Source: Sarcomyxa edulis (taxonomy: Eukaryota > Basidiomycota > Agaricomycetes > Agaricales > Mycenaceae). Taken from it: 64,000 nucleotides of DNA. Numbering within the stretch: position 1 is the stretch's first letter; each line of letters opens with the position of its first letter. Location: the NCBI GenBank assembly GCA_009761415.1, contig QUOL01000013.1, positions 982,501 to 1,046,500 on the forward strand. The letters run 5' to 3'. Under the pieces are notes generated by a model that was not told the DNA's origin, did no database searches, and was given only the letters and a program-made list of their open reading frames with translations. Of this stretch, positions 29,344 to 34,955 are shown in pieces. Position numbers and translations under genes: made by a program.

Positions 29344-29518
29344 ATGAGCGTGGCACAAGGGGTGTACTTATATCTGACAAAACAAAAGATGTAAGTCTGC
29401 GATTACAAGGGCAAACAAGGACACAATGGACGCTGGTGAAGTAGACGAACCCAAGTTGATTTACAGCGAAGTTTCCTTAGACTCACGAATAGTACCTTCT
29501 AGAAGAAATCCCGTCTTA

Positions 29519-29561
29519 CAGCTAATTTCATTCCGATGCGGAAACTCCAATTTTTTGAAAA
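29519..29561 (+). repeat. Left terminal inverted repeat of the transposon
   Basis: Starts CAGCTAATTTCATTCCGATG directly after a TA. Aligned to the reverse complement of 32555-32596, it matches at roughly 34 of 43 positions, including a perfect 12-bp core CGATGCGGAAAC. Confidence 0.85.
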
Positions 29562-29730
29562 AGTCACTGCCAGAACGGGCCTGCGCACGTGGCCAGTTTG
29601 ACGCGCTGTTTCGACTCGGACGCGCTGTAACATGTAACACAATTTGGCAATGCCAGCACCCAGTACCATGCTACGACGTGTTTGCAATAAGTAAATGCAA
29701 AGTCCTGAACTCTGAACTCATACTACCAAC

Positions 29731-31324
29731 ATGTCTACACCTGAGCCTGAAGGCCCTGTCAACACAAACCCTCCTTTCTCGGTCCAGCTTACTACATACT
29801 CTACTGCACCATCCAAATCTGGTAAAGCACCCGGCAAGGTCACGAAGACTGTCAAAACAAAGGAGCTCCTGCATACCCTGGATGTTGAGGAGCATACTCA
29901 ATTCCTCGAAGCCCTTCTTCAGAAGCACGGAGAATCAAAATATCACGTCACGGAGAGACGGCCGTTCTCTTTCCGCTTCTATTGTCCTCCACTTCGCGCG
30001 TGAGTACCTTCAAGCTATCTTGGTCACGTTTTGATTTGATGCGAGGCTCTTGTTAGCAAAACTGACACCATTGACATCGACAACAATGCCGAATACCGTG
30101 AAATGGTGACGGCTATCCAGGAATACGAGAAGACAGGGAAAAAGGCACTGAAGGTAGTGACCATCCTTGTTGACATGAATGATGTCAAGAAGGCCTGCCG
30201 CATTCGGAGTGATGAGGAGCCTAGTGAAGATGACACAGATGACAATTTGGTGAGTTGTAGTCTGGTCGTTGTTGTCCTATCAGTATATATCCACTAACAC
30301 CTTACGCTTTGGCTTCTAGGGATCAACAACCGGTAATCTCACACGCAGCGAAGAGCATCTTGCAAACATCCGCATGAAACTCGAGAAGAAGCACAAGAAT
30401 GACGATGACAACGGCTATTCTTACGCATACGCCGATGGATTCCGTCTTCAACTCACACCGTTCCTGATGAAAGAGTGGGCCATTGCAGTGGTAAGTGCTC
30501 AATACACCCTATAGCTATAGCCGTACATTTTTTGACTGATGTCTTCACAATAGTTCGAGGGCGAAGCAACAATTCATCATCCCCCCAATACACAAGCTTT
30601 CGACCCTGATAGTCACGGCATCTCGTTACGACCCTTCCAGTCTCGAACTACTAGATCTCCTCCCGGTATGGCTCCCACTCCCGTCACATCAGAGCTTGGA
30701 CACTTCAGCCAGATTATTGGTGATGTCTTGAACTTTGTTAGCAACTGTTCTACTAGTACCCCTTCCGTTCCGAATTCAAGTTCGACCACTCCTCAGACCC
30801 CTACCCGTCCTCGGCATGTTGCGACTTCCGAGAATTCACCCCCTTTCCATCATACTCCATCGGACATCACTCGTTATCTCACATACGCAAAAGAGAACTT
30901 AGGGGTTCCTCAGGCACTCGTATACGACACATTTCTCCGAGCTCAAGATTTTGGACCAGATATCCTTCATGAAGTCGATAAAGATGACCTTCTAGCTCTT
31001 GGGATGCGAGGGGGTGAGGTCATACGGCTTCAACGTGGGAGTCAGAAGTGGTGGAAGCTGAACGCTAAACGTAAACGCTCAGTATCGGATGTGGGAGAAA
31101 AGTCTGTTTCTTCCGAGTCTGTTCCACAACACTCGTATGAGGTATCCTTTCCAGAGGGAGGAGCAGTTAGGTATTCGGGGCCTGCTCCCATGCCAGGTGA
31201 CCCGTCGGAGGTCGACTCACGTACTAAAATCTTTGATCAAGCAAAGGGAATGATGGTTTCTCTCCCACAGGGACTTTGTGCTCCCCGATACAATGCCCCA
31301 GATGATGACCCATTTGCAAATTAG
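29731..31324 (+). CDS. Transposon-borne protein with a SAM-like C-terminal domain
   Basis: Four exons (29731-29999, 30057-30249, 30320-30490, 30554-31324) give an unbroken 467-residue protein. The N-terminal 230 residues form an unknown conserved-looking region, including MKLEKKHKNDDDNGYSYAYA and LTPFLMKEWAIAVFEG. A Pro/Ser-rich linker follows. Residues about 310-375 resemble a SAM-type helical bundle (DITRYLTYAKENLGVPQALV; DKDDLLALGMRGGEVIRL). From general knowledge, similar SAM-ending proteins are repeated in agaricomycete genomes. No catalytic motif is visible. The gene lies entirely between the inverted repeats of a Tc1/mariner-type element and converges on the transposase gene. It may bind DNA or the transposase, or be a captured host gene; the sequence does not decide. 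Confidence 0.85.
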
Positions 31325-31374
31325 ATACATGTACCTAGTCATGTTTTCCCTAGTACACTGTCTACCACAATTAA

Positions 31375-32463
31375 CTAGATATACCCCGAGGCACGAAACC
31401 ATCCAAATGCCATCTCTGGTGTAACACGTTGCAGTGCTCTTCCAATACCACATAGAGTAGTGTCATCCCAGTGACGACGTAAGTATGCCTTCACCGATGA
31501 GAAAGCTTGCTCGATAGGATTGTAGTCGGGTGAGTATGGAGGTAGAAAGATGAGTTTACATACTTATTGGTTGTCCGACATCAGTAACATCAAGACAAAG
31601 AGGAGATACGTACTCACAAGCTTGATCTTCGACAAGTTCTCGAACTTCTTCAGAGTGATGAATGCTGCAGTTGTCCAACACAAGAACACTTCGCGGCCCT
31701 GGATATGGGTTGGTGAGGGGAATCTGTCCAGTGGTTTGAATCAGCTTCAGGTGCTGGTAGAGGGACAGGTGGAATGACTAGGAATCAGATAGGAATAGCT
31801 CACCACAAAATCCTTCAAGAATTGTAGAAAGCGTTCCGAGTTGACCGACCCCTCGATGATGTCGTAGGTGATGATACCATCAATGGTAAGGATAGGGAGT
31901 ATAGACCACCTTTGCCCGCGTACGAAACATCTTTTCTGAATGCAACGTGTCCCAACGGGCGACCATCCCTTTGTCCGTCCATACGTTTTCTCGTTCTTCG
32001 CAGCCTCATCACCAAACATGAACATGTCGGGGCGCAGAACATCTGTCCCAATTTTGTTCATGTAGACTGCACGGAGTAGATCATTTCGCTCCAGAGCCTG
32101 CGCAGAGACAGTCTTGCTAGAGAAGTGGATACGGCGGAGTACGCGGGTGAGAGTGGGAATAGAGACATCCACTCCACGCCGTGCAAAGAGTTGCTCTTGT
32201 ATCTCGTCTAGGTAGATGCAATGGTGTTGGGCTATCAGAGTACGAATGAAGTTGATATCAATCTGCGAGAGCTTGCGCGATCTGTGAGATGGACGAGGCG
32301 CAGGATTGTAGACAGTTCCGTGATTTCGATGGTAGTTCAATGTTTTATATACTAGGCTTTTTTTGATGCCTAACAGGCCACAGACTTCTTTGACAGAGTA
32401 GCCCTGGCCATAGAGAACAGGAATACGGGCTTTGAGGTCTCGAGACACCAGATAAGGAGGCAT
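31375..32463 (-). CDS. Tc1/mariner (IS630-like) DDE transposase, apparently intact
   Basis: Three exons (32463-31804, 31723-31618, 31562-31375) give 317 residues without stops. The N-terminus is a helix-turn-helix DNA-binding region (ARIPVLYGQGYSVKEVCGLL; LVYKTLNYHRNHGTV), then SQIDINFIRTLIAQHHCIYL. Catalytic residues sit in FMFGDEAAKNEKTYGR (first Asp), SVLVLDNCSIHH (second Asp) and PPYSPDYNPIEQAF (Glu), the order and spacing of DDE transposases of this superfamily. An upstream in-frame ATG at 32505 is possible, but MPPYLVSRDLKARIP at 32463 fits related proteins better. It cuts and pastes the element at TA sites. No inactivating mutation is visible. Confidence 0.92.
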
Positions 32464-32554
32464 AATGGCTCTACGTTGGAGGGACTCCTCGTTGAATCGA
32501 CACACGGAGATCCCGGTGCGGGTTTTCCGGGATCACATGATACTCAAAATTATA

Positions 32555-32596
32555 TTTTCAAAAATTCGTGTTTCCGCATCGCATTGAAACCGGCTG
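32555..32596 (-). repeat. Right terminal inverted repeat of the transposon
   Basis: Read on the minus strand it begins CAGCCGGTTTCAATGCGATG and is followed outward by TA. It pairs with the left repeat at 29519. Confidence 0.85.
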
Positions 32597-32998
32597 TAAA
32601 ATAACTTCCGTTGAAAATAGATCCACGGAGACAAAACTTTAGGACGTATACAGACGTCATGCACCTCGTGTGTCTTCTAGGTTTTGAGAAACCGCTAGAA
32701 TCCAAACCTCATATACTGTCGTCCTCTGTCGTCAGGAGCCGTGACGAAAGTAGCGCCATCGAGATTGATGGCCCATATAGATGATTTGAAGTCAGATTGA
32801 CGGTGCATAAGGTCACCATCATGAGCGCAACAAAGATTGAAGTCGCAGTGGTACGATGTCCGACGACTTTAGCATCGTCTTGTTTTCTCTGCAGACACTG
32901 AAGTTGAACGATGCATCGCAAGAGATGCAATTTGGTGTCTAAAACTTGCACCTGTATAGCACATACCACACACGGTGAGTACAAAGGAAAAATATAAA
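32597..32998. other. Flank of the transposon, no gene seen
   Basis: Short minus-strand frames only. The region lies between the right end of the transposon and the stop of the acyltransferase gene and shows no recognisable features. Confidence 0.4.
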
Positions 32999-34955
32999 CT
33001 AAGCCATATCTGAATGACCCCCTTGCTCCTCCAAGTTTCGTAAGAGCACAACAATAGCCTCATTCGAGGCATACGCATCAGTCGAAAATCCAAACCCAAG
33101 CCGTTTGCGCAATTCCCCAGAAAGCTGGATGAAGTCCATGGAATTAAGACCTAAGTCTTGGAACGTTTCCTGTAAGAGTTCAGGATCGGGGTCGTATCCG
33201 AAAAGGATCGCCATAAGATCTATGCAGATAGCGTCGACTTCTTGGTTAGAAGGAAGGACGAAGGGAGTGGATTGTGCTTTGGGAGAGGCGAGAGTAATGA
33301 GTGATGGGGTTAGGACGACGTTTGATGTTGCATTCGACACGGTGATAGAGGTGACAGTGGCAGCAGCGTGAACGGTACTTGCGTCAGTTACCGATTGAGA
33401 GATAGTTGGAGCAGCTAATATGGTCTCGGAAACCTCAGCAATCGGCGAGGCTGAAACCTGTATGATCATTCCCTCCGGGGGTACTTGCAGTCCAATCAAC
33501 AAATTCCCTATCGTCTCGTTTGACATGTATGCATCGGGTAAAAACGCGACGCCAAGTTGTTTCTGTAGCTCACCAGAGAGACGTATGAAATCCATCGAGT
33601 TGAGTCCCAAATCCTGAATAGTTTCGTTGAGGATCTCAGGATCAGAGTCGTACCCAAACATCTCGGTTAAGATGTGGAGGCAGGCAGCTCTGCGTTCTTC
33701 GTTGGAAGAAGAAGCGATGGTAGACGAAGAGGGGGCGGCTACGTCAGAGGAAGATGAGCCCAATGATATGCGAGCATCGTTGGGAACAACTATCGTTTCG
33801 ATAGGAACGTGCGGTAGCAGTGACGGGATCTGCTCTGTTTTGGGCTGCATTTCCGCCCAAAATCCACGGTCTTCGACAGCAACTACCTTGAGGTTATCCC
33901 ATCCATACCTGCCAACGATGCCTTTCAACATCGTACCAGGACCTACGTCAATCACCGCATAATCTCCAGGCTCCCCACAGTAAGTCTGCCTGATCGTTTC
34001 CATGCTCTCTAAAAATCGGACAGGCTCACGCATGTGCCTAAGCCAATACGTAGAGCCAATCCGATGGCCAGGAAGAATGCGACCGGTGAGGCCAGAGACG
34101 TATGACGGTGAAAGACGATCTAGTGAGGACCCGATTCGTACGGGATACACGTCTTCCGAAAGAAATTCTTTGAGTCGTCGAATGGGCTTATCCATGATCC
34201 TAGAATGAAACGGCATTGTGGTGTCTACCTTGATCGCTTTGATACCAGCAGCCTGGAATGCTTGTTGAGCCTCCGTGATAGAAGCGATACTTCCAGACAG
34301 TACCGTGTGAGAAGGGCCTGCGTAGATGGCAATCTCTGCTACTGGCGATGGGAGTAGAGCCAATGTAGCCCGCACTTTTTTGATAGGCGCGAATGCGTTC
34401 AGCATGGCTCCCGCTTCAAGACGAGAGTCTTCGACCAGGAGTGCTCTCTTCGTGATGATATCGATAGCCCCCTTCTCGCTGAGATTCCCGCTTGTTATAG
34501 CTGCCGCAAACTCTCCGAAGCAATAGCCTACGACGGCAGTAGGTGAGATGCCAACAGAGGCGAGACGTTCGACGTTCAATAGCTGCGACGCAAGCGTGCG
34601 AAGTTGAAATTCGAGAGGTCGGGTGGTGTCAAGGATAGTCGTACGGCTTCTGCGTAACGATATCAGTACAGAGTACAATAAGACATACAAGATACACTAA
34701 CGTGGGCTCGAGGGTGTGTGAAGCATATGCCTCGTCCAGAGTAGTCGTGACATGACCACGAAGTCTCTCCATGATAGCCGCCAGTGCATTGTTGGACTTA
34801 TCGTCCTTTACGCTGCCTGACCAAGGGCCAAACAAGAAAACGTATCCCTTTGGAGTCGCGATACCAGTCTGGACGGATAAGACGGTGTTTTCGACAGATT
34901 TTGCCTTGGACATGGCCCTTGACAGTGGCGAGAATGAGTGTTGGGAGAACAGCAC
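32999..34955 (-). CDS. Free-standing polyketide-synthase-type acyltransferase with two carrier domains
   Basis: Two exons (34955-34702 and 34649-32999) give 634 residues. Residues about 35-360 form an acyltransferase (AT) domain: KGYVFLFGPWSGS at the start, then AVVGYCFGEFAAA, TKRALLVEDSRLEAGAM, YAGPSHTVLSG, MPFHSRIMD (catalytic His) and DVGPGTMLKG. The nucleophile motif GxSxG reads GYCFG, with Cys (TGC) in place of Ser. Two acyl-carrier domains follow at about residues 420-490 and 560-630. Both carry LGLNSMDF with the Ser that takes the phosphopantetheine arm, and both are preceded by FGYDxDPE. No ketosynthase, reductase or releasing domain is present in the protein or next to it. It may load acyl groups onto its own carriers for a partner synthase elsewhere, or be a remnant of a larger synthase. 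The start could also be the ATG at about 34913. Confidence 0.88.

Follow-up and report, generated by a model that had tools for sequence, protein, structure and literature searches.

We analysed a window of 64,000 nucleotides from Sarcomyxa edulis (contig QUOL01000013.1, C5:982501-1046500; genome of 35.6 Mb in 40 contigs), in which a TA-bounded element at positions 29519-32596, with the first letters CAGC and the last letters GCTG, encloses a transposase gene and, in convergent orientation, a second gene, hereafter ORF2. The window denotes this whole stretch, and positions given without a contig name refer to it. The structures of both genes are splice predictions made from the sequence. The features of the element are:

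29517-29518, no strand: left TA of the target site duplication, by direct reading
29519-29561, + strand: left terminal inverted repeat, starting with CAGC; ungapped 33/43 match with the right end
29731-31324, + strand: ORF2, 467 aa, splice model with exons 29731-29999, 30057-30249, 30320-30490 and 30554-31324
29776-30192, + strand: predicted PB1-like N-terminal region of ORF2, approximate, with an intron inside; placed via alignment to the Mycena crocata protein P0123
30350-30625, + strand: central region common to other ORF2 types, approximate, with an intron inside; a W-A helix, then a Gly-Glu and Pro-Pro motif
30866-31078, + strand: predicted SAM-like five-helix C-terminal region of ORF2, from an AlphaFold2 model of window positions 30830-31081 (pLDDT 80.5)
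31325-31374, no strand: gap of 50 bp between the two convergent stops (31322-31324 and 31375-31377)
31375-32463, - strand: transposase, 327 aa, DD35E, splice model with exons 32463-31804, 31753-31618 and 31562-31375
32554-32596, - strand: right terminal inverted repeat, with the final letters GCTG; same pairing as the left repeat
32597-32598, no strand: right TA of the target site duplication, by direct reading

The ends agree at 33 of 43 ungapped positions when read from CAGC to GCTG, and the 45-nt arms 29516-29560 and 32555-32599 have a complementarity of 80%. Across a 5.1-kb segment, the top 43-nt inverted match reaches 34, compared to 26-29 in ten mononucleotide shuffles. The transposase matches the Pfam family DDE_3 (E=1.9e-29) and contains the catalytic triad D152, D247 and E283, with 35 residues separating D247 and E283. 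Its splice model allows two shorter variants, and the 3' end of the second intron is AAG. A helix-turn-helix motif is borderline (HTH_23, 24.8 bits in the first exon against a cut-off of 24.6, and 24.0 bits on the spliced protein) and was counted as present. The TA duplication, the terminal inverted repeats and the DDE/D spacing of the transposase all place the element in the Tc1/mariner (IS630-Tc1-mariner) superfamily. A sequence-only reading of the window had proposed inverted repeats of about 43 bp flanked by TA, an open, spliced DDE transposase frame and a convergent gene of 467 residues whose stop lies about 50 bp away, and all of these were confirmed, as was its central claim of a Tc1/mariner element whose ends enclose a further gene that is conserved.

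Over its whole length, the transposase is 62% identical to a Lyophyllum protein (P0004), 60% to one of Mycena venus (P0015) and 53% to one of Armillaria (P0027). The elements of these fungi resemble the window element in having a DDE_3-type Tc1/mariner transposase, the comparison being one of transposases alone. The named relatives of both the transposase and ORF2 come from agaricomycetes (Lyophyllum, Mycena, Athelia, Armillaria and others), and the lineage most likely belongs to agaricomycete fungi. No relatives were found among viral contigs, and the prokaryote contigs contained one remote match, in a Planctomycetota bin.

The product of ORF2 has no Pfam match, and a SAM model was absent both for the whole protein at E<=1 and for cut-out regions at E<=10. 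Pfam scans at E<=1 likewise gave no PB1 model on eight ORF2 proteins or fragments and no Myb/SANT model on any ORF2 scanned, and nothing significant emerged when the C-terminal ORF2 alignment was compared by sequence with solved structures (best E 0.058). At the level of predicted structure, the N-terminus appears to have a PB1-like fold (beta-beta-alpha-beta-beta-alpha-beta), as judged from the structure that AlphaFold2 predicts for P0123 and from fold comparison. Since the sequence profile is unmatched, this is an assignment of a PB1-like fold and not of membership in PB1. The C-terminus is less certain. The earlier description of ORF2 as SAM-domain-like finds no backing in sequence profiles, which give no SAM membership, and is moderately supported by the predicted fold. 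Elsewhere, PB1 and SAM folds mediate self- or cross-association.

A protein search with the window ORF2 found two proteins, from Mycena galopus and Athelia. A six-row ORF2 profile that includes both retrieves them together with a Mycena crocata protein (492 aa) and a metagenome fragment. The Mycena crocata homologue is 35% identical to the window ORF2 over 480 residues, and the full-length open frame common to both suggests that ORF2 is under constraint. Two further types of ORF2 occur in the S. edulis genome, named here after their loci. The profile of the window type scores 34.2 against the L044/L039 type, while 30 column shuffles reach at most 9.2. Homology of the L037 type is weaker: it scores 8.1 against the window-type profile (shuffles <=5.7) and 1.2 against the L044/L039 profile alone, which is under the shuffle maximum of 9.0. 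Against the combined window and L044/L039 profile, however, the L037 type scores 36.1, with 100 shuffles reaching at most 22.1, and the 69 aligned columns lie in the central region.

The window transposase has at least 34 matching stretches in its own genome, match counts for large families being lower bounds. Of the 17 regions retrieved, 16 surround a transposase match and one the sole distant ORF2 match. They fall into loci with a transposase of the same type (L037-L047, n = 11), distant classic Tc1 loci (L049-L053, n = 5) and one locus with ORF2 only (L048). Counting the window, ORF2 or a remnant of it is found at seven of the 12 loci with a related transposase: the window, L037 (C2), L038 (C23), L039 (C1), L044 (C40), L045 (C11) and L046 (C1). 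The two genes are convergent in all seven. No ORF2 match was found at the remaining five loci, L040-L043 and the transposase fragment L047, the latter being weakly matched by P0124 (E=0.10). Open ORF2 models were obtained at four loci. Besides the window, these are L037 (C2:629589-633228), an element of ~3.6 kb with repeats of 82 nt that are 96% complementary and an ORF2 of 510 aa (493-549 with alternative choices of splice sites), L044 (~3.0 kb; repeats of 58 nt, 98% complementary; ORF2 450 aa) and L039 (~2.8 kb; repeats of 53 nt, 77% complementary; ORF2 384 aa). Splice modelling gave no model for the transposase of L045, an implausible one for that of L046 and none for either ORF2, so we treated these two decayed loci as relics. 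TA flanks are also present at the elements on C2, C23 and C36 and, with different end letters, on C1. The end letters of L039 read TA|TTGC, compared to TA|CAGC elsewhere, and the right flank of L044 is TC, not TA.

An element of the L037 type is present at two sites. Two inserts, of ~7.6 kb and ~190 bp, interrupt the second copy, at C23:1034897-1046347 (L038, L057), which is why L038 has no repeat pair of its own. The three pieces left by them are 99, 98 and 97% identical to the copy on C2. A few element bases are repeated at the borders of the 7.6-kb insert (~1036941-1044541). Both copies have the two genes inside the same ends, are flanked by TA and lie in dissimilar neighbouring sequence, indicating that an element of this type moved carrying both genes. 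The copies differ at 64 of 3649 aligned positions, 33 of them at CpG, with 46 sites being C/G in C2 and T/A in C23 and seven the reverse. This C-to-T and G-to-A bias in the C23 copy resembles methylation or RIP-like decay. The codon changes comprise 12 nonsynonymous and two synonymous ones in the transposase and 12 and 14, respectively, in ORF2, with zero stops. These differences are a product of decay and no measure of selection.

The window element itself occurs as one copy at the DNA level in its own genome. A 27-place pattern built from both of its ends, with up to two mismatches, matches four places in the genome, namely the ends of the window element and those of an element at C36:715709-716565, and a reversed control of the pattern gives one match genome-wide. 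The C36 element is TA-flanked and 857 bp long including a flanking base or two (~0.85 kb), with repeats of 82 nt that are 99% complementary. Its interior holds only a stretch matching the C-terminal part of ORF2, with 34% identity over 93 residues to the window ORF2 and 44% over 91 to the Mycena crocata protein. The C36 element was apparently derived by internal deletion from a sister element of the one in the window. This ORF2-only derivative is the sole relative in the genome that shares the ends of the window element. As support, the sequence-only reading had asked for several TA-duplicating copies whose common ends enclose both genes, and such copies exist for the relative on C2 and C23, but not for the single-copy element of the window.

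The transposase tree comprises 19 rows, with a root placed for drawing only and a very long outgroup row. Ten transposase rows from the S. edulis genome form a cluster that excludes the window and database rows (94/79). Nearest to the row of the window, whose position the tree does not resolve, are those of Lyophyllum and Mycena venus. L039 and L044 form a pair (100/99). A second group (eight rows, 100/99) unites L037/L038 and L045/L046 (92/93) with their sister group L040-L043. The latter four are transposase-only elements of ~1.5 kb that are 99-100% alike and lie at unlike sites (C1 at 3.86, 0.64 and 0.69 Mb and C37 at 0.83 Mb), a near-identity that suggests recent movement. The model of L040 has a D-to-E spacing of 52, which we attribute to a probably missed intron. 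Because the transposase-only elements L040-L043 are nested among two-gene elements, one loss of ORF2 is simpler than several gains. ORF2 was thus probably lost in L040-L043 and would be dispensable there, a view that leans on the weaker homology of the L037 type and on the root.

Taken together, we consider it probable that the window element belongs to a two-gene Tc1/mariner lineage in which ORF2 serves as an accessory, probably oligomerising, factor. The two-gene elements are bounded by inverted repeats, and their DD34-35E transposase gene and ORF2 lie at opposite ends and run towards each other. The transposase would cut and paste at TA, and oligomers of ORF2, formed via the PB1-like N-terminus and the SAM-like C-terminus, may act with or on it, either helping it to assemble at the ends of the element or modulating how active it is. 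In this scheme, ORF2 would benefit the element yet could be lost. We prefer a helper role since ORF2 has been retained in divergent elements. More tentatively, we propose an old two-component Tc1/mariner lineage of agaricomycetes, whose PB1-like/SAM-like partner may assemble or regulate the transposition complex by polymerisation and was lost at least once.

An alternative is that ORF2 acts as a brake, which would fit the four alike transposase-only copies L040-L043, as against two-gene elements that are single (window, L039 and L044) or present twice (L037 type). ORF2 would then limit the transposition of its own element, e.g. by mixed or overlong assemblies, and be kept for the long-term survival of the element. 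We regard this as unlikely, because the copies are few and because an easily lost brake would be hard to retain across divergent lineages.

A further explanation, which we consider improbable, sees in ORF2 a passenger without a part in transposition, either useful to the host or acquired in a single capture by an ancestral element. Its apparent dispensability in L040-L043 would fit such a history, and interaction-type folds serve host signalling too. However, homologous ORF2s accompany three divergent groups of transposases in one genome in an identical convergent layout, and among the genome places listed there is no ORF2 relative outside elements, save one marginal match (C2:67850, E=0.46). 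The recurrence of homologous ORF2s with divergent transposases also disfavours captured host cargo, an origin that the sequence-only reading had entertained beside the roles of accessory transposition factor and regulator. That ORF2 is a fixed host gene beside a transposase-only element, a condition named there as refuting and one with which the window alone is compatible given the single occurrence of its element, is rejected as scarcely credible because ORF2 relatives lie within inverted repeats at the loci on C36, C2, C23, C1 and C40.

Two observations concern sequences beyond this lineage. The distant loci L049-L053 are five classic Tc1 copies at unlike sites with 1.56 kb in common at ~99% identity. 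A 3.5-kb element delimited by a repeat pair at L049 was rejected, since the five loci share the 1.56 kb only and the far arm lies outside it. In the window, the right neighbour of the two-gene element (32999-34696, - strand) is a frame resembling a polyketide synthase, in which an acyltransferase domain is accompanied by two phosphopantetheine sites.

Second genes are also found in other DNA transposons. In MuDR of maize, mudrA and mudrB are laid out convergently, and their proteins are, to our knowledge, unrelated to those of the window element; MuDR belongs to the Mutator superfamily, unlike the window element. MuDR carries a transposase gene and mudrB, a gene described as being of unknown function and as absent from related elements (PMC3276141). 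Most groups of the PHIS superfamily (PIF/Harbinger and relatives) contain two ORFs, one for a DDE transposase and another for a protein whose role is described as unknown (PMC4482050). In PIF/Harbinger, this other protein has a Myb/SANT (or YqaJ) domain, and the transposase family and target site differ from those of the window element. In ciliates, the Tc1/mariner elements known as Tec and TBE have several ORFs, and one ORF of Tec is oppositely oriented. Tec encodes a site-specific recombinase and has repeats of ~700 bp, and TBE encodes a zinc finger protein (PMC7325037). The window element differs from both in having two genes, short repeats, a fungal host and an ORF2 without those domains according to Pfam. 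In Marasmius oreades, a family of Mariner type is mentioned whose length of 3,972 bp would suffice for two genes (PMC9674265). Our literature search found no two-gene Tc1/mariner lineage in fungi, with most subscription papers and Repbase outside its scope, so that a prior mention is possible.

Tc1/mariner transposases are generally taken to be self-sufficient, a property to which they owe their passage between species and their use as tools. A lineage that retains a second protein in divergent members and includes a nested group without it offers a natural comparison for the effect of an accessory protein. The ORF2 lineage would also point to a transposon origin of some mushroom proteins whose present annotation is hypothetical (P0001, P0002 and P0123). 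If the partner has indeed been lost at least once, its role in transposition would be open to direct test.
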